Shown piece after piece: positions 1,281 to 53,843 of a stretch of DNA of 64,000 nt (its first letter is position 1; every line of letters begins with the position of its first letter). The notes under the pieces are model-generated. The model was not told the origin of the DNA. It ran no database searches and saw only the letters and a list, made by a program, of their open reading frames with translations. The stretch spans positions 42,836,021-42,900,020 of the forward strand of contig OZ007569.1 in assembly GCA_963931925.1 (NCBI GenBank), written 5' to 3'. The translations under genes were made by a program, and so were the position numbers. Origin of the DNA: Onchidella celtica. Lineage: Eukaryota > Mollusca > Gastropoda > Systellommatophora > Onchidiidae.

Positions 1281-7151
<5,871 letters not shown>

Positions 7152-8001
7152 GTGAGAGGATGAACGACTTTTTATTTTTAATGTGCTTTCATGGTAGCTC
7201 TAGTGCGTGAGTGAGGGACGGCCACTCATAGTAGTTTAGGGACACTTGGCCGAGTACCATTAATTGGATTATTTCCCTTGTAATACTAGCGCGGGACCCG
7301 TTATTCACATCACGGTGAAAAGCGCGCATTTTGATTGGTCAGTTGGAAATGTACCGGACTTCCAACTCTTATATCATGGCTTTGAGTTTCTTACAACTCG
7401 CTCACTCGTTGTTATCCACCGACAGAAAGACGGGAACCCGAATTCATTTTTGAGAGTAGACAATACCCTATCGGTACAAAATAGGTACTCATGATAACGT
7501 TTGTTATCAATGGAGATACGTCGTATTAATGGACGAAAGTATCCCGCACAAAATTGTCGAATGTTGTTAGTCCTGACACTTTGAAAATTTATATTAAAAC
7601 TATTACCGGGTTTCTGGTATAAGTAGTCAGTTAGAATTTTAGCAGCAAGTTTCTACTTTATAATGGTACCAATTTTGTTGTACTTTGATGCACATATCCT
7701 ATTGAAATAATTAATAAGAGGATCTCGGATTTAAAGTAAACCACGAGTTAGACGCATGTTATCCCCGATAAATCCAACCTGGGTCAAATTTATTCAATTA
7801 TTGCTGGAGGGGTCGTTAGAGTAATTTCTGCAGTTTACTGGGATACCTAATTGACTTTTGTGTGCACCCTTTTAACCGTACTGTAAATTCGATTGTGTTA
7901 GGACCCTAACCGGTTATGTTGTCGGGCTGGACTCCATGTCCGAGCCTTTCACTTGTGCAACACGGGCTACGTAATAGCTCTCTCGGACGTCCGCGCGGGC
8001 T

Positions 8002-8010
8002 CATAAATAA
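8002..8010 (+). promoter_or_regulatory. TATA-like box of the 5' LTR
   Basis: CATAAATAA follows a GC-rich stretch. A start site about 30 bp downstream (near 8030-8040) would place the intron inside R. The same motif is at 11574-11582 in the 3' LTR and, as a variant, near 52686-52693 in the solo LTR. Confidence 0.5.
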
Positions 8011-8160
8011 GATGCGGTTCGAGTGGTCAACACACTCCATCATAGACGCAGGAGACAAGAGCCGACGGCACGGTGAAGCTAGGCCGGCGGCGGCCTGCCG
8101 TGGCGCGCCTCGCCCAAGACATGGCCTAGTCCAGTTGCGCCAGTAGCAGAGAAACTTTGG

Positions 8161-9437
8161 GTAAGTTGGAGACTATTATATTAGAAGTGACTTTAATTTG
8201 CGCACCCCCCCCCCCTTTCTTGGATGCCGCGTAGAGAATGCTGATCTACAGAGACCATTATGAGTCCGGCTCAACGGTAATTGCCATTGTCATTATTCGT
8301 GTAAGATGCGCTTTGCAGTACAGTGTCTTGATATTGTGACTTTATTGTCAAAGTTAACGTTTGCGGTGCTAGATGATAATGATGGCTCGCTAACCAAGCT
8401 ATCAAGATTTGCTTGTGTGCATATATATAGTGTATGTGTAGCATTGCCTTGTTGTGGTAGGCAGTGAGGATTTCCTGACATGTTGATGTGGATGGCCTAT
8501 GTTACAGCGAGCGGCACTAAATTTGTGTACCTTGCCAGTACCACTATGCTATAGAGAGCAGTGTGATTGTGTGCTTAATGTTTAAGATGTGTAATTAATT
8601 ACATGTAGGCCTATTGGAGATGTATAATATTAGTTGGGCCTCACATGGGTGAGCCCCAGGATTGTTCTATGTGCGGCGGTGGATGAACAATGTTTCAGTG
8701 AGTCTACACATGTTGCAATGAGTCTCGCCGACATATATATATATATCATGTGCATACATTATAGTTATCCAGATGTATTATGCTTCTATATGAGTTTCGT
8801 AAGTGTGTGAAGGACAGTTTCATTTTAAGGAATGTACACATTACTTTATGTATCTAGTGGTGTGTCATACACATGTTAGCCTGGCGGCATAGCTCCGCGG
8901 CTAAGGTCAAAGGGCATGACCCTTCAGTATCGATTGGGAAGGGAAGTAACCAATACAATAGCCCTGGGGCGGGTTAGTACTAATAATGGGAGTGGGCCTA
9001 TGAGGATGGCCTGCATTGGGATGCAGCGTCTGTGTTATGGACGGTCAGTGGGCCATGTTGGCCACTGCGTTATTAAATGGAATGGCCACTCTGGATGTGT
9101 TGTACACCGGCTCAGCGGAGCGAAACTATTGTGTTCTTGCCCCTTCATTTGTTATGTCCTTCATACTTTGATTAGTACATTAATTAGTTTATGTTGCCAG
9201 TGTACTAGGAAACTCCTTGTGTATATGATATAGCCACTTGTAGTTGTTATTCATTAACCTTAGCGCTATTTTATCCCATGCATACATATCCAGTTGGTTA
9301 TTGCTTAAATTCTATATTATATTGTGGTTGTTTGATTTAATACTTAATACTATTACTATGTATGTCCACCATTGATTGCCTGATTAATGTTCGTCATTAT
9401 ATCCTAATCATATTTTCGTCTTTTTCTCTTGTTCCAG
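8161..9437 (+). other. spliceosomal-type intron inside the 5' LTR
   Basis: The stretch begins GTAAGT after CTTTGG and ends TCTCTTGTTCCAG before CTTATGG. A branch-point-like CCTAATC lies about 30 nt upstream of the acceptor. The same 1277-bp stretch is present in the 3' LTR and is missing to the base from the solo LTR at 52844/52845. Its edges therefore come from comparing copies as well as from splice motifs. Confidence 0.88.
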
Positions 9438-9507
9438 CTTATGGCTGGTTGGGTTTCTTTTTTTCGGCTTTTTTTGTTTGGTAGTGATACCGTTGTTAGG
9501 CTTTTTG

Positions 9508-9513
9508 AATAAA
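9508..9513 (+). promoter_or_regulatory. polyadenylation signal AATAAA in the 5' LTR
   Basis: AATAAA lies about 106 bp before the LTR end, as expected for the end of R. Equivalent hexamers occur near 13108 and 52961 in the other two copies. Confidence 0.6.
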
Positions 9514-9624
9514 TAAGATTGCCAGCAGAACCCTGTGTTTGTTAATCCTGTGTATCCTTAAGGGAGTTACTATTGAACCCACGCAGTAACCACATTAGCC
9601 ACTCGTAGTTCATCCAACATTTTC

Positions 9625-9643
9625 TGGTGTCAAGAAGTGGGAT
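9625..9643 (+). other. primer-binding site, tRNA-Leu type
   Basis: TGGTGTCAAGAAGTGGGAT begins five bases after the LTR. It matches the complement of a tRNA-Leu 3' end (TGGTGTCAGAAGTGGGAT) apart from one extra A. The tRNA sequence is from general knowledge. Confidence 0.75.
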
Positions 9644-9700
9644 ACACAGAAGGGTTAGTTTGTAGTGTAGAGAACCCAGCCATGGAAATTTTTAGTTTGA

Positions 9701-10117
9701 GGCCCAGCCAGCCAGCCAACCCCTGCCCTACCCCACAGGAACCAGGGAGCCACGAAGACCAACGCCCTCCAACATCAACTCAAGATCCAGGACCCGTACC
9801 CCGTTCCTGTGCACACCGTCCTGTCTGTTCCCCCGCCTCATGGTGGTTACTTTACCATCAGAAACCCAGATGGAGATGCCTCTGCGGTCAACGGAGACCT
9901 CTTGCGGTTATTTCACCCCCCAGTGGTCAACACACATCCACAGCACCCGCCTCCACTGCCTGCGTCGACCGATGTCTGGTACTTCCCGGCTCACCACCCT
10001 TGCCAGCCACCTGCAGCCCGACCGGACCCTCAACCTGGGATGACAACTTCCCAACGCCTGCCTCCTGTGCGACGGTCCAGCCGCCCACACAGACAACCCC
10101 AGAGATTGGACCTCTGA
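9701..10117 (+). pseudogene. remnant of the Gypsy pol C-terminus (integrase tail)
   Basis: This open frame has no credible start of its own. It reads PYPVPVHTVLSVPPPHGG, then FTIRNPDGDASAVNGDLLR, then proline-rich sequence, and ends PPVRRSSRPHRQPQRLDL before a stop. A proline-rich tail with an RRSSR...RLDL ending is typical of the last residues of Gypsy-type integrase polyproteins. Gag, protease, RT, RNase H and the integrase core are all missing, so the leader is fused almost directly to the end of pol. A longer overlapping frame (9637-10134) is out of phase and looks spurious. Confidence 0.55.
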
Positions 10118-10710
10118 CTCTTATTAGTGATTAACATTAGACATTGACTGTGAGTGCAGAAAGAGCAGGGGAGCGCACCCATCAAGACCCCCCGAGTTTC
10201 CATCAGGCCATATGATAGACCACCGAATTCAAGTGAGCTCGCCTCAAGATTTTAAGTTAGAGAGTATGCCCATGTTAGCTTTCTCCACAGCTTAGTTACA
10301 ATTACTTTTATGCCTATGTTGACCTTACCTTTTTCATTGCACTAGTGCCCTTATAGCATATTGTCTTTTTTTGTACTGTTCGATCCTACGTTAACCCTGA
10401 TAGTGGTCTGGGACCACCGTTGCAGGTCTGGGACCTGTTGTTTTGTCCATATGATGTAACTTGCTACAGCCAGAGCTGAGACTGTTGTGTACATCTTCAG
10501 GATGCCAGTAGTAACTTAGCCGGTTCACGCCACCTGTTAGTAGTTATAAAGAGGATGGACCATTGTTGTACTTCGGTTCACCGTGTGTAATTTGCAATTG
10601 TTCTACCCTAAGTGATGGTATCATAGCCCCTTAGAGTTTGATTATACCTTCAGTGGTCTTTTGTAAACCTTTGAATTGATGTATGTGTCACGTAAGGGAC
10701 TACGTGACTT

Positions 10711-10722
10711 AGCAGGGGAGAA
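10711..10722 (+). other. polypurine tract
   Basis: AGCAGGGGAGAA directly abuts the TG of the 3' LTR, the expected position for second-strand priming. Confidence 0.8.
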
Positions 10723-13219
10723 TGTGAGAGGATGAACGACTTTTTATTTTTAATGTGCTTTCATGGTAGCTCTAGTGCGTGAGTGAGGGACGGCCACTCA
10801 TAGTAGTTTAGGGACACTTGGCCGAGTACCATTAATTGGATTATTTCCCTTGTAATACTAGCGCGGGACCCGTTATTCACATCACGGTGAAAAGCGCGCA
10901 TTTTGATTGGTCAGTTGGAAATGTACCGGACTTCCAACTCTTATATCATGGCTTTGAGTTTCTTACAACTCGCTCACTCGTTGTTATCCACCGACAGAAA
11001 GACGGGAACCCGAATTCATTTTTGAGAGTAGACAATACCCTATCGGTACAAAATAGGTACTCATGATAACGTTTGTTATCAATGGAGATACGTCGTATTA
11101 ATGGACGAAAGTATCCCGCACAAAATTGTCGAATGTTGTTAGTCCTGACACTTTGAAAATTTATATTAAAACTATTACCGGGTTTCTGGTATAAGTAGTC
11201 AGTTAGAATTTTAGCAGCAAGTTTCTACTTTATAATGGTACCAATTTTGTTGTACTTTGATGCACATATCCTATTGAAATAATTAATAAGAGGATCTCGG
11301 ATTTAAAGTAAACCACGAGTTAGACGCATGTTATCCCCGATAAATCCAACCTGGGTCAAATTTATTCAATTATTGCTGGAGGGGTCGTTAGAGTAATTTC
11401 TGCAGTTTACTGGGATACCTAATTGACTTTTGTGTGCACCCTTTTAACCGTACTGTAAATTCGATTGTGTTAGGACCCTAACCGGTTATGTTGTCGGGCT
11501 GGACTCCATGTCCGAGCCTTTCACTTGTGCAACACGGGCTACGTAATAGCTCTCTCGGACGTCCGCGCGGGCTCATAAATAAGATGCGGTTCGAGTGGTC
11601 AACACACTCCATCATAGACGCAGGAGACAAGAGCCGACGGCACGGTGAAGCTAGGCCGGCGGCGGCCTGCCGTGGCGCGCCTCGCCCAAGACATGGCCTA
11701 GTCCAGTTGCGCCAGTAGCAGAGAAACTTTGGGTAAGTTGGAGACTATTATATTAGAAGTGACTTTAATTTGCGCACCCCCCCCCCCTTTCTTGGATGCC
11801 GCGTAGAGAATGCTGATCTACAGAGACCATTATGAGTCCGGCTCAACGGTAATTGCCATTGTCATTATTCGTGTAAGATGCGCTTTGCAGTACAGTGTCT
11901 TGATATTGTGACTTTATTGTCAAAGTTAACGTTTGCGGTGCTAGATGATAATGATGGCTCGCTAACCAAGCTATCAAGATTTGCTTGTGTGCATATATAT
12001 AGTGTATGTGTAGCATTGCCTTGTTGTGGTAGGCAGTGAGGATTTCCTGACATGTTGATGTGGATGGCTTATGTTACAGCGAGCGGCACTAAATTTGTGT
12101 ACCTTGCCAGTACCACTATGCTATAGAGAGCAGTGTGATTGTGTGCTTAATGTTTAAGATGTGTAATTAATTACATGTAGGCCTATTGGAGATGTATAAT
12201 ATTAGTTGGGCCTCACATGGGTGAGCCCCAGGATTGTTCTATGTGCGGCGGTGGATGAACAATGTTTCAGTGAGTCTACACATGTTGCAATGAGTCTCGC
12301 CGACATATATATATATATCATGTGCATACATTATAGTTATCCAGATGTATTATGCTTCTATATGAGTTTCGTAAGTGTGTGAAGGACAGTTTCATTTTAA
12401 GGAATGTACACATTACTTTATGTATCTAGTGGTGTGTCATACACATGTTAGCCTGGCGGCATAGCTCCGCGGCTAAGGTCAAAGGGCATGACCCTTCAGT
12501 ATCGATTGGGAAGGGAAGTAACCAATACAATAGCCCTGGGGCGGGTTAGTACTAATAATGGGAGTGGGCCTATGAGGATGGCCTGCATTGGGATGCAGCG
12601 TCTGTGTTATGGACGGTCAGTGGGCCATGTTGGCCACTGCGTTATTAAATGGAATGGCCACTCTGGATGTGTTGTACACCGGCTCAGCGGAGCGAAACTA
12701 TTGTGTTCTTGCCCCTTCATTTGTTATGTCCTTCATACTTTGATTAGTACATTAATTAGTTTATGTTGCCAGTGTACTAGGAAACTCCTTGTGTATATGA
12801 TATAGCCACTTGTAGTTGTTATTCATTAACCTTAGCGCTATTTTATCCCATGCATACATATCCAGTTGGTTATTGCTTAAATTCTATATTATATTGTGGT
12901 TGTTTGATTTAATACTTAATACTATTACTATGTATGTCCACCATTGATTGCCTGATTAATGTTCGTCATTATATCCTAATCATATTTTCGTCTTTTTCTC
13001 TTGTTCCAGCTTATGGCTGGTTGGGCTTCTTTTTTTGGGCTTCTTTTTCGGGGTTTCTTTTTTTCGGCTTTTTTTGTTTGGTAGTGATACCGTTGTTAGG
13101 CTTTTTGAATAAATAAGATTGCCAGCAGAACCCTGTGTTTGTTAATCCTGTGTATCCTTAAGGGAGTTACTATTGAACCCACGCAGTAACCACATTAGCC
13201 ACTCGTAGTTCATCCAACA
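10723..13219 (+). repeat. 3' LTR (2497 bp)
   Basis: Near-identical copy of 7151-9619. Its intron is 11733-13009, again 1277 bp. The extra 28 bp relative to the 5' LTR lies in the exon after the intron, within repeated GGGCTTCTTTTTTT-like sequence that is prone to slippage. Confidence 0.95.
11733..13009 (+). other. spliceosomal-type intron inside the 3' LTR
   Basis: Same length and boundaries as the 5' LTR intron (GTAAGT...TTCCAG). Confidence 0.87.

Positions 13220-13250
<31 letters not shown>
13220..13250. repeat. (TCTA)n microsatellite, right part
   Basis: Continuation of 7041-7150 beyond the LTR element. Confidence 0.95.
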
Positions 13251-19885: not shown

Positions 19886-22800
19886 GTTCTCTGTCCTGCC
19901 TTTTGATACCTGCTTTACACAAGTCAATGTACTTCTTGATGCTGAGATCTGAGGAAAGACAAAAAGTAAATCTTTATCAGTCACAAATATTTTCATGGCA
20001 AAATCTAACTAATTATTTAAAATGACACCTCTACTGATCAATGAACAGACATATATTAAATCTTTCCACTTATTTAATTACATTTTCTTCATAAAGTGTC
20101 ACAATGAGGACTTTAGAACACAGAATGGTTGGCATGCTTGCCTCTATCTTGTATTCTAATTTAAAGAGAAAATGACCACAAAGACGGAATGAAGGAATCA
20201 CCCGAGCAGAAAAAAAAAGAGAGGGTTGAGATAAAGCTGAAGATAGCAAAGGTTTAGTGTGCCTGCTTACTAGGCTGATACTTCAGCAACATGGCTTCAT
20301 TCCAAATTCAAAAAGGATACAGGTATCCCAAACTGGACCGCTAAAGGGGTGAAATCCCGTTTTGGCATAATTTTAGGTCAACATTACAAGGCTATTACTG
20401 CTGTGTATTTATGTGAAACGCCATGGATCCTACATTAAAATAAAGTTCAATCCTTCTTCTGACAAAATATACTTCCTTTTGCATTGTTTAATGTGTTTAG
20501 CTGTGTGTTTTTGTAGCTTGAACAGGACATAGTCTTGCCGTTTTTGCTCTGAGCTGTGCGTACCGAATAGACACCCTCATAACAAAGGGTCACGGCGGGT
20601 CAGTATCATGTAACACACGTTTTTGAAAATAACTCACATAGAAAGCCAGATAAATGAGGTTTAATTCAATGTATTTTTCCTAGTGTTTTAAGTTGAAATT
20701 CTTTTGAAAATCATTTGTTGAAAAGTTTGTAGACCGAGAAACTAGCGGAAACTTTTATTGATCAGGAGCAAAATAATACGCAAATAACCCTCAGCCTTTG
20801 CATTATATGGGATGCCAAAATGAGACATGGGGCCTATTTGGGATCGAAGCGCCGACTGTTTTTAGAGACCCACCCGATGATTTCGTCACATTTATCCAAC
20901 ACTCAGTGCTAAGTCAATGGCGACACGGCTGACCTCCTTTTCAATTAAAAAAAAACAAAAACATAATTTTTGTCTCCCCTGTAAGAGTTCAAAAAAAAAT
21001 GACGTCGGATGACGTTTGCTGACTAAAAAATGTAAAATGAGATGCTTGTGTTTTGTTTTGTACCCCTCGAAAAAAATTAAGCATAATGTACACCCTCTTT
21101 ACTTGGATACTGAGAATTTTTAATGCCGTGGCTCAATAAAACCGTCATTTTATGGGAGGTCCAAGTTGGCTTCGCGGCTGATGACACAATGACCACAAAT
21201 TTTAGAAAATTCAAAATGACACAACTTTCTTAAATATGGAGATACAGAGACAAATTTGGTATCAAAATTCTTAGAATACTGAGATCTATCCATTTGAAGA
21301 AAAACTTATTGATATAGCCACTTTCCAAAATCAGTTTGGGGTACCTAATGTAATTGTAATGTCAAGATCCCAAACAGACTGAGACCAACAGTTATGTAAT
21401 TATATAATACATGTTTCTTTACTACTGTGTTATATTAGCACATCAGCCAGACATTTAAATTTGCTTTTCTCTTCAGGTAAATTTGGGATCATACAAATTG
21501 TTTACTATAAATATAACTTATTCCCCTCTACATTTATTAAACAACAGACCAGAGGATGCTTCTGATTTCCTATGATGATTCACAGTGAGTTGACATTGGC
21601 AATGCTGTTAAGTGAAAAATTGCTTAGAATTTGACTTTCAGAACACTCAGCCACACATTTAAAAAAAACAGAAGAAATTATTATACCCTACAGCAGAGTG
21701 TTCCCTATACTTTCTTTGGAATGATAGAGCAAAAAAGAAAAATGTTCCATATTGCAATCTTTCTTCGTAAGTTTGTGTGATGTCAGTCATTAATTTTGCA
21801 AGAAGACAAATCATTCACTGGAGCACTTGCAAATCATTGTTCAAGTTTTCTAAATTTAATCTAAGTTGTGTCAAGTTATTCTTTGAAAGAAACATGATTT
21901 ATTTGTCACTGATTCAAAGGAATGTTCATTATCAAACTGTGAGGTAGAGTGAAAGGATTTTATCACATTTTATTTGCAATTATTAGAACGTATTCTGTTC
22001 ACACAATGTTCCTTGTGAGTGAGCTTGTCACAAAAAGAACACATGCAAAATATTTGCCAATAAAATGCAATGATCTCAAATTAAGGCATCACATTGAGCT
22101 CATAGTCATAGCATATTTACCAATAATATACAGTTTAATGAGTCTGAGTATGAATTTGATAACTGTGATAGATAAACTGAAGAGCATTTTTCCAGAACTG
22201 GGTAAGTCACATTTTGCATGAGTTATGGCCCCTTTCAGATAGTCATTCAAAATTAGTGTAAGACACGGTGTAAGCATTCAGTTAAAACTTGCTTTGTTCC
22301 GTCTCTATCGGAAGTTTTAACTGAACACTTTCAAGTTGTAACTGAACACTTACACTGCATGTTACATTAATTTTGAATGACTATCTGAAAGGGGCCATAA
22401 CTCATGCAAATTTGACTAACCCAGTTTTGGAAAAACACTCTTCAATTAGTGATAGGAAGTCTCTAAACCAAACATTCACATAACACTGTACACCTGTATA
22501 ATGAAGATGTAGGGAATTAATCATGATCTTTCATAAATATCTCTCTTGATAATGGTTGCTATATAATAATATAATAATAATAGTTCGTCCATCAGGTATG
22601 ATGATGACCTTAACAACACCAGAGGAATAAAGAACAGAAATTGTTGAGAATTTCAACACATGGACAATAAAGAGAACTAAAGGACACAGAGGACAGAATG
22701 GAAAGACTGTTCTTTCATGACTTATGGCTTCTCATGTGACTGATAAGTCCTATTTTTGCCCTGCAGACCCTTCCGCATAAATGACAAGAGTGCTCCGTTG

Positions 22801-25800
22801 GTTCAGTACCACTGGGCCTTTTCTTGCGCCGTTCTCTTTTTTTGATAGCCTGCTGGACTCTGTCAGCTTCCCATGCTTTGCTGCCTCTGGTAAGGGCCGC
22901 CCTCCAATTTGCACGATCAAGCGAGAGCTTTTCCCACTCACTCACATCAATGGCAAAGGCCTTCAGTGATTGCTTGAGAGTGTCTTTGTAACGTCTCTTT
23001 GGGGCCCCAACATTCCTCGTTCCATTGGAGAGCTCAGAGAAGAAGATTTGCTTAGGGAGTCTGGAGTCGGGCATTCTGACAACATGTCCTGCCCAACGTA
23101 GCTGAATTTTTTTCAGGTGGCAGAAGATGCTCAATTCCTTGGCACGATTGAGGACCTCAGTGTCTGGAATTTTATCCTGCCATTTGATCCTTAGGATCTT
23201 TCTAAGGCAGGCCAGATGAAAGTGATTTAGCTTTCTGGCATGCGATTGGTACACTGTCCAGGTTTCAGCCCCATAGAGTAGGGTGGGAAGGACCACAGCA
23301 TTGTACACTTTCAGCTTAGTGTCTGTGCGAATGCCGGCGACATCCCATACTCTCTTTCGAAGCCTGCCAAATGCAGAGCTGGCTTTGCTGATTCTTGAGA
23401 GAATTTCAGTATCAACACAAGCCGCGGAAGACAGTGTACTGCCAAGATAGGTGAAGTTCTCCGACACCTTCAGAAGACTGTCATGGACTTTGATATTTGG
23501 GGTCACAGGATACTTGTCGTCTGGAGTAGGCTGATGGAGCACTTCCGTCTTCTTTGTGCTTATTGTGAGGCCAAAGTTGTCACAGGCACTAGAGAACTTA
23601 TCAACACAGTTTTACATGCTATCCTCATCGTGTGCCAGAAGTGCACAATCATCAGCAAATAGTAGGTCACAGACTTGAGTACTTTTGGTTTTGGTTTTTG
23701 CCTGAAGTCTCCTGAGGTTGAATAGACTGCCATCAGTTCGGTACTTGATGCTTACCCCTTGGGGAGGAGAGCTAAAGGCTTCTTGTAGCATTGCAGAGAA
23801 CATGATGCTGAACAGAGTTGGGGCTAAGACACAACCCTGTTTTACCCCATTTGTGACAGCAAAGGGCTCTGAAACACTGCCGTTGCTTTTGACTGCAGCT
23901 TGCATGCCATCATGAAACTGGCGCACTATTATATACACAGCTTTTGCTGTGGAAGAGGGGTCACTGCAGTGAGCTTGAATGAGACTATTTTTTTCTCTTT
24001 GATGAGCACTTTGATTTCATTATCATTATCATTGAACCAGTCCTGGTGCTTGCGGACAGGAAAACCAACAGTGCTGCTGGCGCAAGAGTGTACAGTCGTA
24101 TTTAGGTCAGTCCAGCTCTGTTCAATGTTCTCAGGGTCAAAAGTCACGCAATCCAATTTTGAGGAGAGTTCTGATGAGAGCTCGCTCTGTTTCTCAGCTG
24201 AGCAGAGTTTTGAAACATTTAGGCGTTTAGGTGGCGCTTTCCCTTGAGGGCGTCTATTGCGCCTCAATGTTAGTCTGAGCTTGCAAACAATGAGTCTGTG
24301 GTCAGTTCCACACTCGGCACCACACATCGCCTTTGTTACAAGGACATCCTTTCTGTCAGTCTTCCTCACAATGACATAGTCTATGAGATGCCAATGCTTT
24401 GAGCGGAAATGCATCCATGACGTTCTGTTTCTCACGGGGAGACTAAAATTTGTGTTGGTAATGAACAGGCCAAATTCAGCGCACAAAGTAAGTAAGCGCA
24501 ACCCATTGTTATTGCATGAACCAACTCCATGAGGGCCCAAAACATTTGGCCACGCTGAGATTTCGGAGCCAACCCTAGCATTGAAGTCCCCCAAGAGAAT
24601 CAGCTTATCAGCTGCCGGGACAGAGCATATGACAGATTCTAGATCAGAATAGAACTTGTCTTTGGCTTCATCTGGGTTTGTCATGGTGGGCGCATATGCG
24701 CTAATGAGGGTGGCTGACTGGCTTTTCCCAACTGGGATCCTGAGTGTCATTAGCCTGTCATTTATTTCAATTGGCATGGACTGCAAGTTTCTGACAAGGT
24801 CATTTTTAATTGCAAACCCAACACCATGCTGTCTCGGTTCGACTGCACCCTTGCCTTTCCAGAAGAAGGTGTATCCACCACTGAGCTCTTTGAGTTGGCA
24901 ACTATCAGGGAGTCTGGTCTCACTGAGTGCCACTATGTCCAGGTTGTACCTGCTGAGCTCAATGGCAATAAGTGCAGTGCGTCTTTCCGGGTTGTTTGAG
25001 TTGTCCTGTAGTGTGCGTATATTCCAGGCTCCTAGCCTGAGTAAGCTGAATTTCTTTTTGTTTCGACCGCAAAAAGGGATCCCCACTGGTCGCGGTATAC
25101 CAGTCAGGGTGATGTGAAGTGGGCTTTCTTTAGGGCACCTTTTCTAGCCCCTTCCTCAGTTGAGGTGAGCAGTGCTATCCTTAAATAAGGCTGCTCAGCT
25201 ACTGTGGGTGCTGCCTCCCCACGCCTCCACTTCAATCGACGATGAAGCGACCATAGCCCACAGCCACCAACGTGTAGGTCTGTGCTAACAGCTTCCAGAC
25301 TATCCAAACCTGCTGTCACCGCACTCGCCCATCGCCGTTGGAATTTTGAGAGGAAAGAAGACGAGACAAAGATGAAAGAAGACGAGGTGAGTGTTAAGAC
25401 TGGCGCAAAGAATTTGTTTTTAGTGAGAAAGAGCTGCGCAAACATCAGACTCACTCTCTCGCCTGGACACAACTTATCCAAGTGGCAAGACAGGGTCAAG
25501 ACGACTGGAAATGTATCCAGGTGCAGGAGGATGCCAGAGGGACAGCCTCGCAGTCCCAACTGACTAGGGTGAAAGACCCAAACCAAAGAACACCAATACT
25601 GGTGGATGCTCTGTGTCACGATATCCAGGCCAGAGTGACGGTATATTGCCATCTGCCCTATCAATCAACCACTGGCCTGCTGCCGCCAGCTTCGAAGCTG
25701 CGTCCGGGAAGTTTGCTCAATTCTTCGTCTGTGATTTAGGCAAACAAGCCTATGACCACACCGCTACCGGGGGCCAATATGAAGGACTCAAGTACTGAGG

Positions 25801-40900: not shown

Positions 40901-43900
40901 ATTACATGTACATCCCTTCTCGCGCATACCCCCACATACATACACACACACACACACACAAAAACAAACGCACAGGCACCAGTATGAGATCTTTTGATTA
41001 TTTTTTCTTTAGAAGTGACCGTACCGCAGCGGTAAAGCAATAAAGCAGCATTGAATGGCTTGGGTCTAGCTCACGGCTGTTAAGAGGCGGTATTCTAGTT
41101 GCCGAGCCCAGTCGAGCGGCCTCCCCGCTATTGGTGACCTGACCCGGTCGCGACCTCGTTAACTGGGTCAGCGACCTCGATTCTAGGGGGGGTTTCCCGG
41201 AGCCCGTTTAGCGCTTCTGACTCGCTGTTTTTTATCGGTAATCAAAGCAGTCTCACACCCAAATCAGCCCATATGTCATACTTTTGTAAACACATAATAA
41301 CTTAGCGATATATTGTAAATGTATACAGTGAACCATAGAAATGTATTCAACATCGTAGTAGAGATATAGAGGCACAAAATTATACAATATTTCCTCAAAT
41401 GAGTACATTGTTCATAAATTTCAGATATGAAATTAGATATGATTGGCCCCATCGAATGAGGTGAAATCATCACACAGCATGAGAAATAGGTTAACTTTCA
41501 AAACTCACATGACTGCATTCATGTATAGATATCCAGTGTCGAGTTATTCGAGTTTGACGATCGTTTTCCGTTGGCCTCACTGTCAGTGTCATGTCACGCC
41601 TGCACTTAACCAGTCATATGTTATCACAAATTCACAAATAATCAAAAACAATGAATGGGTCTATAAAATTATAAATAATGTCACAGATTAAGATTTTGTC
41701 TTCCTTCGTTTCACGGGTGGAGCACATGCTTGGAGTTCTGGGGAGGTTTGTAGATGTTGTGACTGCATGACTAGTTGAAGTTGGTGTTGCTTGTTTTTGA
41801 TGGCTGCTGCCCGTCTTTCTAACTTGGCCACAGAAGCGTGAATGAGCCCGCCCCCTTGCTCACCATGCAGTGCCATACCAAACCCGTATTTCTGTATCCA
41901 GGGAAGGCAGTGCTTCTCTAGAATATGTTGCTTAGGTATGATTTTATTGGGGAAAGAACATCTGAATAATTCCATGTACCTAGTAATCCAAGTTTGAATG
42001 TGTGGAATGTTGTTAGGTGGCACAGGTTTTCCATGTGATATTAATGTGTGAACTTTGGCGTATGCTTCATTTATTTCATTAAATTTGTCCCGCAACAGGA
42101 ACGCCATGGTCAGTATGCTCTGGTTGTGTGTGTTTTCCTGTGTTTTCTTGATAATGAACAAAGTAATGTCTTTATAAACTTTGGCAGTGATGTATTTGTG
42201 GCAGTGGTTTCCGATGAATGAACGGCTATGGTATGACTGAGGTGTAATGTTGTGTTTGTCAAGAATGTTGTCTAGTTGTGAGCAGATGGGCCCTGACCTA
42301 GGGCTGAGGGGCTCGAAATCAAGGTTGAGTAACTCTTCTTCTGCATCTGAGAGCTTCTCCTGAAAACGGCTTCTCTCTTCTTCATCATTAGTCAGAGTCA
42401 CACAACCTTGCAGGAACCGAATTCTTTCTTCGAGTCCCTCAGCCTTTGGCCAGTTGCTTCCATAGGATTTTACTGACGCAGACACACCTTTGCATTCATC
42501 TTCTGCTTGTAAGCCCAACTGCACATCGATTTCATGTGCAGCCTCTTCAAGCAGGCGATGGTGTTTCAGCACAATACCTAACAAAATATGAAGATATGGC
42601 GGAGCAGCATGGCTTGGATCTACATCTAGCATTGGGAGGTGGAGACTATTGTGAAAACGGCGCACATGTTTCTTCAGCCCTAAGCCGACCTCTTTGAAAC
42701 GTTTGTAGTCGTGTTTGATGGTGGCCAAAGAGTGGGCTGGAGAGTCATGTGTTTGTAATTTCATCATGTAGGACTTTGGCGCCAGGCACCACAGACATGG
42801 GTATGTGCCTTGTGCACCAGAGAGTCCATATATTTTAGCAAGAAAGTCATAATCGCCAAAAAGGAATAAAACTATTTTCTTGCCCTGCCATACTAGTGCT
42901 GAAAGCTCTGCAAGTTGAGGTTGTAAAACAGACATACATGTTTCAAGGTTTTCATAGCTGTCTTTGATTTTTGCCATTGCAACTAGAAATGTGTTGTGTT
43001 TTGAATTGGCTTTTTGTGTGTTAGCTATTTGAAGAGTAAATTTTAAACTATCTTTGCCGTGGTCCCCCCCAAACTTAACCCAAATTTCATCCTGTGGAAT
43101 GGTGAAGTCGTGCCACGTGAGTGTCTCATTTTGTTTCTGTTTGTCTAAGATGTTGACTACAAAATCTGATAGATTTGAAACCCTCCCGAATGCTGCGCGG
43201 TGTGTCTGTCCATCGGCGTCAATAAAATCCTCCATCTCTGTGACAATGTCAGCTGCCAGATCTTCCATGGCTTTCCGTTGTTCTTGCTCATTTGGCAACA
43301 TGAGGCCAGCTTCTTTAAGATACCGTCTTTGTTGACGTAAATGGCTCCATGTTAGATCTGTAGCTTCCTTCATTGCCATCACAGACTGGCTGCTCATTTG
43401 TGGTTTTAATTTAATGCCTGCCTCCTCACAAATATTCTTTCGTGTCGCTGTTTTGACCTGTCTAAGTTCTGATGCATGTTGTGTGGTAATACTGTCTTAT
43501 GATGCGCCTGCTATGCTAGTCCTAATGGTAGGAAGCAAATGTGTGCGTTTTCTTTTGGTGGTTTCTTTGGCTAGAGATGTTTCTTTATTTGTTTTTGTTA
43601 GTTTGGCTAATAGTATAGGTTGGCCTCCTGTCTTGCATTTGAAAATGTTTGTTTCTGAATTATTCAATCGTCTCCTAACAAAATGTGTGTGAAGTTTATG
43701 TTCTTCTTGTGTAAGTGGCCGTGTTGGGGACAATTCGAATGACTGGGAAAATAACTTGTCGTGTTTAAATGCCGGTGAGGTGTTGCTGTCTACCATAACC
43801 TTTGTAGGTTTGTGTGGCGTTGATGTAGCAATAGGGGGGCCGCTCAACTCTGCCTCATTAAGGCCACTGCTAGATGACGGTGTGTTTTCTGTTAGCGTTG

Positions 43901-46308
43901 TGTCCTCGCATGTTGTACTACAGGTCATTGATAGGTTGGATGTGTCATGTAATGTAGCTGATGTGGCTTCCGTTATGTCACGATGGATTGCGTCTTGTAT
44001 TGTACATGCAATCGTTTGTGTTGGTGCTGTCTCCTCAAATGTTGAATTTTGTGTTATCGGCGAAGGGATTATATCCTCTAATGTCGAAGTTGAACATGCT
44101 GCTGCTGCTGTGGAAATTATTGTTTGGTCTCTGTCTTGATGTGGTGTGGAGTCATTTGAAACATGTCTACTCCCCAAACTAGTCTTTAAATACTGTGCAC
44201 ATAATACACAATCTGCGGCCCTCGTGTGTGGCTGAAATTCAGTCCATAAATGTGAACTTCCTTGGGCCAACTTCCTGGCGTTAACAATACTACCTTTGAA
44301 GGCATGGCGTTTGATGTTTCCTATCACGGCCACACACGAATAACAAATAGTTGAGGAGTGAATATGATTCAAGTCGCCGGTGATGGATACACCAAAAGCA
44401 AGCAAAATGTCATTCTCAAAGTCCTTGCATTTCTTTGCTTTCCGCCTTTGCCGTTTTTGCTGTTTGGTAAGTGTCCTCCCACCACATGTTCGACACAGTT
44501 CGTGGAGGCGCTCAACGTGGATATGTTCTTCATGGTGCTCCATTTTGCAATATTTTTCACACAAGCTGCTAATAACAGGCGGCAAACAAACAAAAAATGG
44601 CACAGAAGCACCTCGATTGAGTCGCACAACTTTTTCAAAAATCGTAAACAAATCACACAGAACCTATACATACACCAAACTTGCACGGGTTAGAGGTTAG
44701 CCTTTACACTTTCGAAATATTGATTTTATATGGAAATCAAAGGCGGCCCGTGCAAAATATTGACGATTAAAGAGAACTAGTGTTGAAAATCAAATTCCAA
44801 AATCTAAAAAACACACACTGGAAATATCAGCCGATAAAATCAACAATCTTGAAAAGTAAGCAGCAAAAGTTATATCGTCCTGTTGGTACAATCCTGACGT
44901 TTAAAATGAGATCTCGCATGGTGCTGTAGCATTATTAGATCGGAAGATATCGCGCTGCAAAGGTATGCGAAAATTGGTGGAATCGTATTACACAGGCTTG
45001 ACCAGGGATGGCATGCCGTCACGGATGTGCACACGGCTGACAGGTGATTTATGACCGCATCGCGGGAGGTCGGCGGGGGATTCCGATCGGCAACTAGAAT
45101 ACCGCTTTCCAAGCGATTTAAACAGCCGTGAGCTGTAGTGGGCAGCAAACTCTGTTGCCTCTTGCCTGCCTTTATCTTGGCGGCATGTACTGTGTGTGAC
45201 CTCATCAATCAATAAAGACATTCTCCCATGTATGATGTTCAAATGCAAGACCGTAGGCCTACTGCATTATTCCATCTTGCTATCAGTGGAGTGAAATTAC
45301 CATTATTCAGTATAACAATGCCGTATTCGTCCCCCCTCCCCATCGAGTGTAGTGTGGTGAATGTGTAAACACTACAGCGAGGTATTTGCAGTTTGTGCTA
45401 AAAGCCTTGTGTAGGTGAAGTCTTTGTTCCTTGTACCTGTTATGGTTACGTCAGCAATCGCTAAATGTACTGGTCATAATGCAAGCACCATCTTGCGTAC
45501 ACGTGTTGTTGGATGATACCACTGGTTATCAGGGCAGAATCACGCTGCGTGCAGTGCTCCCACCTGTACCCCTGCCTCTCTCCACGGCATGTTTTTCACT
45601 TGGTCAAACAGACACTTAGGAGGGAGGCTCTACAACTTACCCATTGCATCATTTTTAGCAACTCTACCTCCCCCTTGACCGCTGCAAAGAGTAAAGACCT
45701 GTGTCGGTGTTTGTGGAAATTGGTTTTTACGGGGTTGGAAATCAGAAGCTACACTGAGGATGAGCGCGCTCGATTTCTCAGAATTTGGTCAAGTCGAAAT
45801 GTTTAATAGAGATAAAGAAGAAAAAAACAACTCATTTCGATATCACCTGGATTTAGCAGAAATTTGAATTACCACTCCACTGTATTTAATTGTAATGATC
45901 ACAACAAGAAGATCCTTGAAAATTAAATATCTTCATCGTCCATTTTTAAGAAATGTAATTTCTGCTGTCTTCAAACTGTTGAGGTTTTAGTTGAGACATC
46001 CTAATTTTTACCTGAGTGGTTTACTAATTGAGTAATCAGGAAAATATTCAGATCTATTACATCTTGTTGATGGTAAGATGGGTGAAAGTTGGCTGGAGAA
46101 ATCTGGCATGGCCAGAATATCAGCTACACACCTCATGCTATTCATAGTATGTTCCAAACAACACTAGTACACATATTATTGGGTATTGTGTTTGCAGATC
46201 TGAGTGATAAAACAACTAGTCCTCATCTGCCATGTTAAACTGGAGGCTTAATAGTGTTTTTCTTATTCTTTCACAGGTGTCGCAGCAATCATGGCATCAG
46301 GACTTTGA
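28946..46308 (+). CDS. EIF3K: eukaryotic translation initiation factor 3 subunit K, eight exons
   Basis: eIF3k is a non-core subunit of the eIF3 complex that binds the 40S ribosome. Exons are 28946-28998, 32896-32994, 37149-37269, 38808-38882, 39240-39306, 39894-39971, 40496-40621 and 46277-46308. All introns are GT-AG, phases agree, and the total of 651 nt gives 216 residues (human 218). The encoded order matches the family: [121 protein letters not shown] and C-terminal VAAIMASGL. The first ATG has a purine at -3 and G at +4. Intron 7 is 5.66 kb because a 4.06-kb transposon sits in it antisense. Confidence 0.98.
29225..30332. mobile_element. TIR-bounded unit A in eIF3K intron 1
   Basis: The ends are inverted: TGGTCAGTGCACTAGGTGCG at the left and the complement of TAGTCAATGCACTAGGTGCG at the right, with TA outside both. 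The interior shares long stretches with 30370-32795, for example CTTTGATCAAGTTGCAAAAT and TTCAGTTGTTTACTATTAGC. No coding capacity is apparent. It contains MITE 1. Confidence 0.6.
29822..30064. mobile_element. MITE 1, GG ends, 8-bp target duplication CATATTAA
   Basis: 26-bp inverted ends (29822-29847 and 30039-30064; inner part CCGCCCGTCCGCGCCA) are flanked by CATATTAA at 29814-29821 and 30065-30072. Unit B carries the empty-site version (CATATCAA) near 32265. Ends starting GG and an 8-bp duplication fit Merlin-type or another 8-bp-TSD superfamily. Confidence 0.85.
30940..31030 (+). mobile_element. tRNA-like SINE fragment
   Basis: AGCGTAGTTGTTAGCATCTC resembles an A box, CCCGTCAGGC an anticodon arm (GTC), and GTGGTTCGATTCT a B box, followed by a T run. 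The arms do not close into an intact tRNA. A second B-box-like GCGGTTCGACTCT is at about 31142. Confidence 0.4.
31330..31520. repeat. minisatellite of about 36 bp
   Basis: About four to five units like GATAATGTTGACTGATAAAG with CTGGGCAGTATCC between them. A related single unit (TATCCGTCGATATTGTCGGA) is at 30625-30646, at the other edge of the extra segment in unit B. Confidence 0.7.
31636..31845. mobile_element. MITE 2, same family as MITE 1, 8-bp target duplication CTCTTTCT
   Basis: The ends GGAAGGTCTTCC and GGACCTCCC (inverted GGGAGGTCC) match MITE 1 in opposite orientation. CTCTTTCT occurs at 31628-31635 and 31846-31853. Unit A has the empty site (CTTTTTCT) near 29598. Confidence 0.85.
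32896..32994 (+). other. EIF3K: eIF3K exon 2
   Basis: Acceptor TTTTCCAG/ATACAAC, donor AAACT/GTACGT. Encodes [20 protein letters not shown] and the next residues. Confidence 0.96.
33166..36746. mobile_element. possible large inverted-repeat-bounded element
   Basis: A perfect 25-bp inverted repeat (33166-33190 and 36722-36746, core ATGACTCATTCTCAAAAGG) bounds 3.58 kb of non-coding sequence in eIF3K intron 2. GACGTC motifs cluster near both ends and nowhere else that I noticed. No target duplication is clear, so the element interpretation is tentative. Confidence 0.4.
34135..34560. repeat. two-copy tandem repeat of about 202 bp
   Basis: Units start TGTGACGTC (34137) and TGTGACATC (34339) and share ACTTTWAATC...ATTATTTGTGATA, then GTTTAAGCCCAG or TTTTTAGCCCAG, then GAGACGTCACAC or AAGACGTCACAC. 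A third start is near 34540. Confidence 0.7.
37442..37593. promoter_or_regulatory. three GGGTCA/TGACCC palindromes
   Basis: Inverted half-sites occur at 37442-37461 (spacer 8), 37513-37528 (spacer 4) and 37578-37593 (spacer 4), in degenerate units of about 65-71 bp that also share GATAGTAG. They look like nuclear-receptor half-sites but could be just a decayed satellite. The location is eIF3K intron 3. Confidence 0.4.
41072..41105 (+). repeat. left TIR of the RAG1-like element
   Basis: Outer block of 10 bp, spacer of 5 bp, inner block of 19 bp. It begins CAC, as do RAG recombination signals and Transib ends. Confidence 0.8.
41688..44543 (-). pseudogene. RAG1-like transposase with one in-frame stop
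   Basis: The frame from ATG at 44543 to the stop at 41688 has 951 codons, broken once by TAA at 43497-43499. The N-terminal piece has C17-x2-C20, H62-x4-C67-x2-C70 and H106-x5-C112-x2-C115 with an upstream W100, the spacing of the RAG1 N-terminal zinc region. A Ser/Thr-rich linker follows. The C-terminal piece (from Met at 43397, own numbering) has D112 in [24 protein letters not shown]201-x2-C204, D258/D260 in [10 protein letters not shown]491-x4-H496 and E513 in ALHGEQGGG. The C-x2-C plus H-x4-H pair followed by an acidic residue mirrors the RAG1 ZnH2 and last catalytic region. Catalytic assignments are inference. The copy is probably inactive unless the stop is read through. Confidence 0.8.
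45087..45130 (-). repeat. right TIR of the RAG1-like element
   Basis: Same outer and inner blocks as the left TIR but with a 15-bp spacer instead of 5 bp. Confidence 0.8.
46277..46308 (+). other. EIF3K: eIF3K terminal coding exon
   Basis: Acceptor TTTCACAG/GTGTCGC; encodes the last ten residues and TGA. It is only 32 coding bases long and 5.66 kb from exon 7. Confidence 0.95.
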
Positions 46309-49807: not shown

Positions 49808-51830
49808 GTGACTCGTAGCATTTGGAACAAGAAAGAAGAACTGAGCTCATTTTTGAACGAAACTAAACCTGACGTAATCATCGGAACAGAAACATGGCTA
49901 AACGAAAATATAAAAACCAGTGAAATTTCAATTAATGATGATTATGAAATCTACAGAAATGATAGGAAGAAGAGAAGGGGAGGTGGGGTCTTGATAGCAG
50001 TGAAGAAGAACTTAGTTAGTGAAAAAATACCTAGTGAGGAAGCAGGAGAAACTGTTCTCTGTAAGATTAGAGTGCAGGGTAAACCTCCTCTTGTTGTGGG
50101 TGCAGTCTATCGACCTCCTGGTAGTGACTTGGAAACTAGTAAGAACATTTGTAATGAACTTCTCAGTGCCTACCAAAAGAACAAAAAGGCTACCATCTGG
50201 ATAGGAGGAGATTTCAATTTACCTGATATAAACTGGGAAGAAGGAAATGTGAAGAGTTGCCAAAACTTAAGAGAAATAAATGACCTATTTTTAGACAGTG
50301 CTGCGGATATAGGCCTAGAGCAAGCAGTAAAAGAGACCACTCGAGGAGATGCACTGTTAGACCTATTCTTTACTAATTTCCCTAACCTTACAAGAGAGAT
50401 CAAAATTCTTCCTGGACTAGGGGACCATGACATAGTCCAGATTGATTCAGAACTGAAACCCTTTAAGAAAAGACCTATTAGGCGACAGATTTACCTATGG
50501 AATCAGACAGACGAAAATAATTTGAAAAGGGAGGCAGCAACTTTTGGCACTTTTTTCATGAAATACCACTCTTCAAAAACTGACGCAAACAAACTCTGGG
50601 ACTGTATCAAGTTAAATTTGAACATGATCATGGAAAATGTCCCAACAAAAATGTCATCCACAAAAATTCACCAACCCTGGATAAATACTTTAACGAAAAG
50701 ATTAGTTCGGAAAAAATATAAATGGTTCAAAAAAATGAAACAGTGCAACTCCGAACGAGTGAAAAACAAATATCTAGAAATTAAAAGATTGACACAGAAA
50801 GAATGCCGGAAAGCTCATAATAATTATATCCATGAGATGATAAGTGATTCATCTGATAACAGTAAAAAACTTTGGAGATATGTGAAAAGTAAAAATAAAG
50901 AAAACTTAGGAGTAGCCGCACTGAACGATGAGAGAGGGCACCCACAGCAAGATGCCCAAAAAAGAGCCAATATCTTAAATACTCAATTTTGTAAGGTCTT
51001 TTCCGACCCAGGGGGAGTCTTCTCGGGAGAGCTGAGTGATGCCAAACTGCCGGATATGGATGAAATATTTGTCACAGAAAATTGAGTACTGAAACTTTTG
51101 GAAAACCTTAACGAAAATAAAGCTACAGGGCCTGATGGAATTCCCGCCAAATTACTGAAACTCTGTGCCAAGGAAATTGCCCCTGTTTACACTTTGTTAT
51201 TTAGACCTTCAATTGAACAAGGAAAAATACCGGAAGACTGGAAAAAAGCAAATGTAGTACCCATTTTTAAGAAAGGAAATAGAGCTAGTCCTGAAAATTA
51301 TAGACCAGTCTCCCTGACATCAATATCTTGTAAACTTTTAGAGCATATCTTGCATACCAGCATCATGAAGCATCTCGAGAAACACTCAGTTTTAACACAT
51401 GTACAGCATGGTTTTAGAAAACACAGGTCGTGTGAGTCCCAGCTGGTCACAACTTGCAATGATTTTGTTAATAACTTGAATAACAACAACCAGACTGATA
51501 CCATCTTATTAGATTTCAGTAAAGCCTTCGATAAAGTGCACCATGCTAGTCTCTTGACTAAACTAAACCATTATGGAGTTAGAAACAGTACTTTGAAGTG
51601 GATTAAGTCTTTCTTAGAAAATAGAACACAGATAGTCGTCGTTGATGGAAAGTCATCCAATCCTGCAGCTGTTCTCTCGGGAGTACCCCAGGGTACTGTA
51701 ATGGGCCCCTTACTATTCCTAGTTTATATTAACGATATGCCAAGTAAGATCTCTCCAGGCACTAAATTACGACTGTTTGCTGATGATAGCCTCCTCTATA
51801 GAACAATAAACTCAAAAGAAGATACGGAAA
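49808..51830 (+). pseudogene. LINE endonuclease-RT, part before the LTR
   Basis: Endonuclease motifs are KPDVIIGTETWL, VVGAVYRPPGS, WIGGDFNLPDINW and LPGLGDHDIV. RT motifs are NENKATGPDGIPAKLLKLCA, VVPIFKKGN, NYRPVSLTS, ILLDFSKAFDKVHH, LSGVPQGTVMGPLLFLVYIN and the catalytic LRLFADDSLLY. The frame continues without shift through the TGA at 51083. The ATG-less start at 49808 is just the first open codon after truncation. Confidence 0.9.
51827..51830 (+). repeat. target-site duplication GAAA of the solo LTR
   Basis: GAAA at 51827-51830 is repeated at 53073-53076. Removing the LTR and one GAAA restores an uninterrupted RT frame (DTE then ILQKDLDSLQ). Confidence 0.92.
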
Positions 51831-53072
51831 TGTGAGAGGATGAACGACTTTCTATTTTTAATGTGCTTTCATGGTAACTCTGGTGCGTGAGTAGGGGACG
51901 GCCACTCATAGTAGTTTATGGACACTTGGCCGAGTACCATTAATTGGATTATTTCCCTTGTAATACTAGCGCGGGACCCGTTATTCACATCACGGTGAAA
52001 AGCGCGCATTTTGATTGGTCAGTTGGAAATGTTGACCACCGGGCTTCCAACTCTTATATCATGGCTTTAAGTTTCATACAACTCGCTCCGTCGTTGTTAT
52101 CCGCCGACAGAAAGACGGGAACCCGAATTCATTGTTGAGAGTAGGCAATACCCTATCGGTACAAAATAGGTACTCATGATAACGTTTGTTATCAACGGAG
52201 ATACGTCGTATTAATGGACGAAAGTATCCCGCACAAAATTGTCGAATGTCGTTAGTCCTGAAGCTTTGAAAATTTACATTAAAACTATTACTGGGTTTCT
52301 GATATAAGTAGTCAGTTAGAATTTTAGCAGCAAGTTTCTACTTTATAATGGTACTAATTTTGTTGTACTTTGATGCACATATCCTATTGAAATAATTAAT
52401 AAGAGGGTCTCGGATTTAAAGTAAACCACGAGTTAGGCGCATGTTATCCCCGATAAATCCAACCTGGGTCAAATTTATTCAATTATTGCTGGAGGGGACG
52501 TTAGAGTAATTTCTGCAGTTTACTGGGATACCTAATTGACTTTTGTGTGCACCCTTTTAACCGTACTGTAAATTCGATTGTGTTAGGACCCTAACCGGTT
52601 ATGTTGTCGGGCTGGACTCCATGTCCGAGCCTTTCACTCGTCCAATTGGACTACGTAATAGCTCTCTCGGACGTCCGCGCCGGCTAATAAATAAGATGCG
52701 AGTTCGAGTGGTCAGCACACTCCATCAAAGACGCAGAGACAAGAGCCGACAGCACAGTGAACCTAGACCGGCGGCGGCCTGCCGTGGCGCGCCTCGCCCA
52801 AAACATGGCCTAGTCCAGTTGCGCCAGTAGCAGAGAAACTTTGGCTTATGGCTGGTTGGGCTTCTTTTTTTGGGCTTCTTCTTTTTCTGGGCTTCTTTTT
52901 CTTTTTCCTGGTAGGCTTTTCCCTATGCCTTTTGGTAGCGATACCTTTGTTAGGCTTTCGAATAAATAAGATTGCCAGCAGAACCCTGTGTTTGTTAATC
53001 CTGTGTATCCTTAAGGGAGTTACTATTGAACCCACGCAGTAACCACATTAGCCACTCGTAGTTCATCCAACA
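51831..53072 (+). mobile_element. solo LTR without the intron (1242 bp)
   Basis: Same family as the LTRs at 7-13 kb: begins TGTGAGAGG, ends CATCCAACA, with several per cent substitutions throughout. At 52844/52845 it runs directly from GAAACTTTGG into CTTATGGCTGG, lacking exactly the 1277-bp GT-AG segment found in the other copies. Confidence 0.93.
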
Positions 53073-53843
53073 GAAATTTTACAGAAAGATCTAGACAGTC
53101 TACAAAAATGGGAGAGGGACTGGCGTATGGAATTCCACCCCAATAAATGCCAAGTCCTGAGAATTTCAAATAAAAAACACAACATCACCTCAGACTACTT
53201 TATACACGACGAAAAATTGAGCGAAACACATGAGGCTAAATATTTGGGAGTTACATTGGACAGAAAACTTACATGGAACCAACACATTAATAACACATGT
53301 AACAAAGCAAACGGTATACTAGCATTTCTAAAAAGGAACATCTCTAACTGCGATAGGAAAGTAAAAGAAAAATGCTATAACACCTTTGTGAGGCCCTCCC
53401 TAGAGTATGGCTGCAGTGTCTGGGACCCCCACTGTCGAATAAACATAGACCAACTGGAAAGGGTCCAGAGGAGAGCTGCCCGCTTTGTGACAAATGACTA
53501 TACTAGAAGTAGTAGTGTAAATAAAATGATGAGAGACCTCGAGTGGACACCATTAGAAGAGAGGAGAGCAAAAAACAAAGTAAAAATATTTTATAAAGGC
53601 AGGGAAGGAAATATCCATATCCCACTGAACCACCTCACCATTAATACCAGAGGCAACAGAAGGAATAATATAAAATATAACATCCCAAGCTCACGGGTTA
53701 ACAGCCATCTTTATTCTTTTTACCCTAATGTCATCAGGATGTGGAACAACCTCCCGGCAGAAGTCCAAACACTATCGTCTGCAACGACTTTCGACAATGA
53801 ATTTAAGAACATTATTATCCGTTGCAGCTACCATTGTAACTAA
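53073..53843 (+). pseudogene. LINE reverse transcriptase, part after the LTR
   Basis: In frame with the upstream part: WRMEFHPNKCQVLRIS, KYLGVTLDRKLTWNQHI, VRPSLEYGCSVWDPH, QLERVQRRAARFVTNDY and MWNNLPAEVQT, the usual thumb and C-terminal part of CR1/Rex-group RTs, ending at TAA 53841-53843. Confidence 0.9.

Follow-up and report, generated by a model that had tools for sequence, protein, structure and literature searches.

A probable spliceosomal intron in the R region of a Ty3/gypsy LTR coexists with abundant intron-minus copies in the genome of Onchidella celtica

The window, which is the whole 64,000-nt stretch of Onchidella celtica DNA analysed here (assembly GCA_963931925.1, contig OZ007569.1, positions 42,836,021 to 42,900,020), contains a short LTR element at 7-13 kb and a solo LTR at 51.8 kb. 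Both LTRs of the short element carry a 1277-nt block that is missing from the solo LTR. LTRs with and without this block are referred to as intron-plus and intron-minus. The following features are located on the forward strand.

7151-9619 (+): 5' LTR of the short element, TG...CA, intron-plus, delimited by sequence comparison
8003-8010 (+): TATA-like box ATAAATAA
8031-8160 (+): predicted exon 1 of R, with a putative 5' limit, ending in CTTTGG
8161-9437 (+): probable spliceosomal intron, 5' LTR copy (from its ends, splice scores and genome junction counts)
9404-9408 (+): branch-point-like CTAAT; its A, at 9407, precedes the intron end by 30 nt, with no AG between
9438-9530 (+): predicted exon 2, the 3' part of R, with a putative end and a variable T-rich array
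9484 (+): last base of the second-best acceptor by splice score, TTTGGTAG/TGATACCG
9508-9513 (+): poly(A) signal AATAAA
9620-10722 (+): internal region of the non-autonomous element, PBS-like at 9625-9643 and PPT-like at 10711-10722
10723-13219 (+): 3' LTR of the short element (LTR B), intron-plus
11733-13009 (+): probable spliceosomal intron, 3' LTR copy
51831-53072 (+): solo LTR, intron-minus, with target duplication GAAA at 51827-51830 and 53073-53076
52844/52845 (+): fused exon junction CTTTGG/CTTATGG

The short element (7151-13219) is flanked by the target duplication TATC (7147-7150 and 13220-13223), which lies within a TATC microsatellite. Its paired LTRs differ by one substitution, which is inside the block, and by a single 28-nt indel in the tandem array of exon 2. 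This T-rich array has the unit TTGGGCTTCTTTTT (window 9451, 13023-13050 and 52856-52920), and its length differs between copies. The PBS-like sequence after the 5' LTR, TGGTGTCAAGAAGTGGGAT, resembles the complement of an animal tRNA-Leu 3' end, with one extra base. No tRNA or tmRNA genes were found in the window by ARAGORN.

The longest frame of the internal region contains no Pfam domain. An autonomous relative (L069) encodes a polyprotein with a protease (60-155), an RT (386-545), an RNase H (647-753) and an integrase core (975-1072), all identified by Pfam, and a gag-like protein with a CCHC knuckle. Positions 1-65 of the short internal region match 66-130 of L069 at 91%, and positions 156-1103 match 4572-5517 at 95%, the latter being the 3' part of the autonomous internal region. 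As judged from these alignments, the short element is a non-autonomous deletion derivative, which has the common LTRs and internal ends and is devoid of gag-pol. The TG...CA LTRs, the target duplications and the pol order protease-RT-RNase H-integrase indicate that the family is a Ty3/gypsy LTR retrotransposon.

The sequence-only reading had proposed that the segment in both LTRs is an intron between the transcription start and the poly(A) signal, starting with GTAAGT and containing a branch-point-like CCTAATC. Sequence comparison supports this. The block is found at 8161-9437 and 11733-13009 and has the structure GTAAGT...CCTAATC...TTGTTCCAG. The TATA-like box at 8003 and the AATAAA at 9508 flank it, and both signals are retained in the solo LTR (TATA-like box at 52687). 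These positions place the block inside the predicted R, which probably starts at about 8024-8036.

The sequence features of a U2-type intron are present in the block: GT...AG ends, a consensus donor, a branch point and a pyrimidine tract. In 6 of 35 copies the branch-point-like motif is CTAAC. The donor and acceptor of the block each rank first in LTR B when scored with rough, general splice-site weights not trained on this genome. With the same weights, only the real block reaches the combined score among 2,970,703 possible blocks, 60 nt or longer, on the sense strand of LTR B, and the best antisense donor/acceptor pair scores 16.1 versus 21.7 for the block. The splice ends show no extra conservation over the rest of the intron, as 855 of 1253 25-nt windows are equally conserved in one set. 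In a diverged set, 444 of 1218 60-nt windows are as conserved as the splice ends. Neither set supports purifying selection on the splice ends.

The solo LTR is about 96% identical to LTR B. Their alignment contains several small gaps and one large gap of exactly 1277 nt, and it confirmed the claim that the solo copy joins the two flanks precisely, at 52844/52845. Placement of the large gap is ambiguous by 1 nt due to a common G, and one of the two placements gives GT...AG. The solo LTR interrupts the RT frame of a non-LTR element, whose sequences on either side rejoin into an open frame. Among the matches listed in a protein search with this RT were relatives at 53-68% identity from mixed sources, Branchiostoma belcheri being one of those named. 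An age limit for the solo LTR, based on one in-frame stop in this host element and on generic mutation fractions, was rejected as too rough.

The window also contains other notable frames. On the reverse strand, frames at 22715-25143 resemble by eye the endonuclease and RT of a second non-LTR element; a 298-aa frame among them has no Pfam match. Two adjoining frames at 41691-44663 (-), of 602 and 388 aa, match Pfam DUF1280 (3.6e-16) and RAG1_imp_bd (6.5e-06), respectively. From these matches the locus looks like a transposon with a part similar to the RAG1 N-terminus, comparable to known RAG1-N transposons. A frame at 57148-58047 (+) matches the THAP domain (8.3e-08); within it, a tandem array of about nine 51-bp units (57370-57820) preserves the reading frame.

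A survey of intron-plus and intron-minus copies had been proposed, and we carried it out on the whole 1.14-Gb genome (43 contigs, window included). The family has well over a thousand end repeats, and both states are abundant. Allowing at most two mismatches, we counted the intron-plus 5' junction at 1533 places, its 3' counterpart at 1687 and the fused form at 961, whereas the reversed-pattern controls gave 0. The fused junctions include 401 perfect 23-mers. Pattern searches of the genome found no fused joins with 1-30 extra bases and none with 1-4 missing bases. Thirty of 30 intron-plus loci picked by the 5' junction alone end in TTGTTCCAG followed directly by CTTATGGC. A second exon-1 type likewise occurs in both states: with three mismatches allowed, it has 1032 plus and 487 minus junctions, and these counts overlap with the first set. 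The intron-plus share of counted junctions is about 61% (1533/2494) to 68% (type 2, 1032/1519). Exact family patterns were found at 0 places in viral contigs (three patterns) and prokaryote contigs (one pattern), and no poly(A)-tailed retrocopies of spliced R were found in the genome.

A diverged subfamily, about 5% different in U3, is also present. All five copies fetched from it have the intron, with unchanged splice ends; as the query itself contained the intron, these copies attest to its presence and do not measure its frequency. In L078, a fused copy that also belongs to this subfamily (99% identity over 264 nt) lies next to a plus copy. Elsewhere in the genome, fused junctions at C8:56781019-56787901 have a steady spacing of 2294 bases, and those at C1:101889871-101909271 are mostly 2397-2398 bases apart. 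This suggests head-to-tail arrays of the LTR and internal region.

Neighbouring junctions were typed from the matches listed, the first 100 places per search. Among these matches, junctions of short elements are spaced about 2.3 kb apart in the intron-minus and 3.6 kb in the intron-plus state for most hand-picked same-strand neighbours. The corresponding spacings of long elements are about 6.7 kb and 7.9-8.0 kb. In both forms the difference equals one intron. Spacings outside these classes were 2582, 2900, 3264, 3398, 5118, 7202, 7204, 7411 and 8014 bases, and the 8014-base pair encloses a gypsy-like element of another kind. At C4:50172700-50178900 (L070), two intron-minus LTRs flank a 1554-aa frame from a different gypsy-like element, which is probably nested. 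Full-length intron-minus elements, whose existence had been posed as a check, do occur beside intron-plus ones, both as short non-autonomous and as autonomous forms. Pieces of two sampled 6.7-kb intron-minus internal regions are 99.5% identical to an intron-plus internal region. In 17 LTR pairs covering both states, the partners diverge by 0 to 1%, which indicates that both kinds moved recently. A candidate mixed element at C1:64296000-64304400 was resolved into separate insertions.

If splicing causes the loss, the donor is expected to be joined sometimes to the next-best acceptor. A single search for the donor joined to the acceptor at 9484 found such joins at six places in the genome (four exact, one with one mismatch and one with two), and the control gave 0. 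One of the joins carries the other exon-1 variant. Two exact joins are located 2227 bases apart on one strand (C14:12567511 and 12569738), which is the spacing of short intron-minus elements; another of the joins is at C16:37276830. A deletion between TTTGG microhomologies would have kept a TAG. The TAG is absent from the matched sequence, and such a deletion is therefore disfavoured.

An additional informative copy is a chimeric element at C2:18551100-18558500 (L102, L094 and L101). It is one insertion with the target duplication TTCC and an intron-plus 3' LTR. Its 5' LTR is composed of U3, exon 1, nt 1-69 of the intron and then 1757 nt of pol; exon 1 begins again at window-equivalent 8024-8034 and continues across a fused junction to exon 2 and U5. 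Microhomology of about 11 nt, at the predicted 5' end of the RNA, spans the last join. The most economical interpretation of this one copy is that strong-stop DNA synthesis began on a 5' R that had been spliced, then switched to pol and afterwards to an unspliced R. Because the two LTRs of the element differ, a second molecule must have taken part.

The distribution of intron states was compared to trees of the LTRs. The first tree contained 72 LTRs (34 plus and 38 minus), with both LTRs of some elements included and with six short or unreadable loci as well as duplicate and internal loci left out. Eighteen changes of intron state are needed on it, and well-supported branches force 13 or more of these; intron-minus LTRs also fall into groups. 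When a single LTR represents each known element (66 rows), 11 changes are forced by well-supported branches, and with a U3/U5 tree that leaves out exon 1 (67 rows, three dropped), nine are. For the 62 main-group rows of the latter tree, the intron state needs 20 changes, compared to a shuffled mean of 20.4 (154 of 300 shuffles as low). The intron state thus does not follow the U3/U5 tree. The exon-1 type needs 10 changes on the tree without exon 1 (shuffled mean 13.7, 4 of 300 as low), which indicates that R is only loosely tied to U3. An apparently tight clustering of exon-1 type (5 changes, shuffled 13.5) was rejected, since the rows of that tree included as much as 60 nt of exon 1 itself.

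R and U3 therefore reassort, and the tree alone cannot separate loss from exchange. Recombination is frequent among these LTRs and could move the intron state too. The intron could have been gained or lost once or twice, with the two states spread afterwards by gene conversion or by recombination of co-packaged RNAs that takes R from one molecule and U3 from another. We consider this unlikely, although the frequent changes of exon-1 type are in its favour. Distances in the intron and in U3 are nearly uncorrelated (r -0.01 to 0.07 in one sample set, 0.29 in another), and even between the halves of U3 the correlation reaches only r = 0.32. In some copies the intron is a patchwork, and in one sample of plus copies its diversity is 2.06%, lower than the 3.0% of U3. 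Diversity of U3/U5 is 3.1% within plus, 3.6% within minus and 3.4% between them, values not decisive for polarity.

The sequence next to the junction is harder to reconcile with exchange. We counted exon-1 haplotypes at 79 junctions of fetched loci, a few of which give more than one junction, leaving out known partner LTRs. Among haplotypes seen more than once, 6 of 7 at a length of 60 nt and 6 of 11 at 100 nt are found in both intron states. Unless splicing was involved, each of these six haplotypes, with identical 60-100 nt tails, would need a separate crossover located between the sites that distinguish it and the junction. The 9484-acceptor join requires at least one more exact event, and the fused R of the chimeric element begins at the predicted cap region.

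It is very improbable that the block is a transposon or other insertion and the intron-minus copies are old empty sites. Its absence from many copies agrees with an insertion, as does the fact that retrotransposon families commonly show large indels in their LTRs. However, the sequence-only reading had held that an inserted segment would be missing from most copies and would have inverted repeats or a target duplication, and the evidence points the other way. The majority of junctions are intron-plus at the mismatch limits used. Compared to the solo copy, no target duplication longer than the 1-nt ambiguity is found at the block ends, and the block contains neither terminal inverted repeats nor an end-to-end inverted repeat. 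It has no Rfam match at the gathering score (best E 4.9), and its longest frame has no Pfam match. In addition, its ends coincide with the best donor and the best acceptor of the LTR, and the alternative join uses the second acceptor. Ordinary DNA deletion in intron-plus copies is barely conceivable as the origin of intron-minus copies, since the 1-nt microhomology at the block ends would have to account for 401 exact joins, no near misses in the ranges searched (1-30 extra or 1-4 missing bases), and full-length copies that lack the block in both LTRs at 0-1% LTR divergence.

The block is therefore very probably, on the evidence of genomic sequence, a U2 spliceosomal intron in R of a Ty3/gypsy LTR, which has been lost repeatedly through reverse transcription of spliced RNA. 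This is supported by the exact ends at the best splice sites, the abundance of both states and the lack of near-miss joins in the ranges searched. The predicted alternative join, the recent full-length copies of both kinds and the shared exon-1 haplotypes provide additional support. In the proposed route, for which we infer the limits of R, splicing itself, the strong-stop step and the number of losses, transcription would start just upstream of exon 1 and end after exon 2, so that each end of the genomic RNA has a copy of the intron. Where the copy in the 5' R is spliced, minus-strand strong-stop DNA would copy the spliced R and pair with the 3' R, and both new LTRs would be devoid of the intron. 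Where that copy is retained, both new LTRs would keep the intron. Loss would have happened several times or more, while intron-plus copies stay active. The 51.8-kb copy need not itself record a loss event, since intron-minus LTRs also group on the tree and recombination moves LTR parts between lineages.

Introns in Penelope-like elements were reportedly described by Arkhipova and colleagues in 2003. In some of these elements, introns are found in the terminal repeat. According to the portion of the literature consulted, copies of Penelope-like elements keep spliceosomal introns, similar to the copies described here, and their retention is attributed to a template that is antisense or unspliced (PMC3846280). 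Penelope-like elements encode a GIY-YIG endonuclease and use another replication route. In contrast, the present family has a Ty3/gypsy protease, RT, RNase H and integrase, no GIY-YIG match was found in the autonomous relative by Pfam, and copies with and without the intron exist side by side.

Foamy virus provides a second comparison. In the sections of the source consulted, a strong major splice donor is located in R upstream of the poly(A) signal in both LTRs, the 5' poly(A) site is silenced in a U1-dependent manner, and the RNA structure at the donor is proposed to differ between the 5' and 3' LTR (PMC3694450). The LTRs studied here likewise have a strong donor within R before the poly(A) signal in both LTRs. 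Unlike the virus as described in those sections, they contain the best acceptor in the same R, which creates a complete intron within the LTR, and no contrast in donor accessibility between the 5' and 3' LTR was found by simple folding. Silencing of the 5' poly(A) site by U1, as in foamy virus, is a candidate explanation of intron persistence.

Other systems share individual features. The excerpt consulted on split-intron retroviral vectors describes an LTR donor duplicated by reverse transcription, as here (PMC3182074, on the vectors of Ismail et al. 2000); those vectors are engineered, and their acceptor is located downstream of the packaging signal, outside the LTR. The taeniid ta-TRIM are, like part of this family, short non-autonomous LTR elements accompanied by solo LTRs, and the solo LTRs start transcripts, many of which are spliced. 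The splicing connects the LTR with acceptors that lie in neighbouring genes or DNA, and no whole LTR intron is described in the part of that source consulted (PMC4558846). Two further phrase matches, as far as the extracts consulted go, concern a bacterial group II intron gene, ltrB (PMC4256276), and a lentiviral vector (PMC5542766). In the parts consulted, the Penelope-like elements, foamy viruses and split-intron vectors likewise do not have a complete intron in R of a Ty3/gypsy element. Our literature search, in which subscription journals were little covered, did not turn up any Ty3/gypsy element reported to have an entire intron inside its LTR.

It is possible, if doubtful, that the intron has a function in the element's life cycle. 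By binding the donor, U1 would silence the poly(A) site of the 5' LTR, and splicing would lead to early polyadenylation. While the intron is retained, mainly the unspliced 5' R would yield full-length genomic RNA; once it is spliced, the exon-2 acceptor would promote early polyadenylation. Such a role, if true, would explain why about 61-68% of the counted junctions are intron-plus although every spliced template erases the intron. The genomic copies would then be records of single splicing outcomes.

An intron in R is expected to vanish once spliced RNA is copied, yet both states coexist in large numbers, and their coexistence spans autonomous and non-autonomous forms. The family would be a natural assay of splicing and retrotransposition, with more than 2000 counted junctions, some of them with an alternative acceptor. 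Its copies in the genome can be used to ask how frequently genomic RNA undergoes splicing before it is reverse-transcribed. The family also bears on how introns in the R region survive and on intron loss through cDNA.
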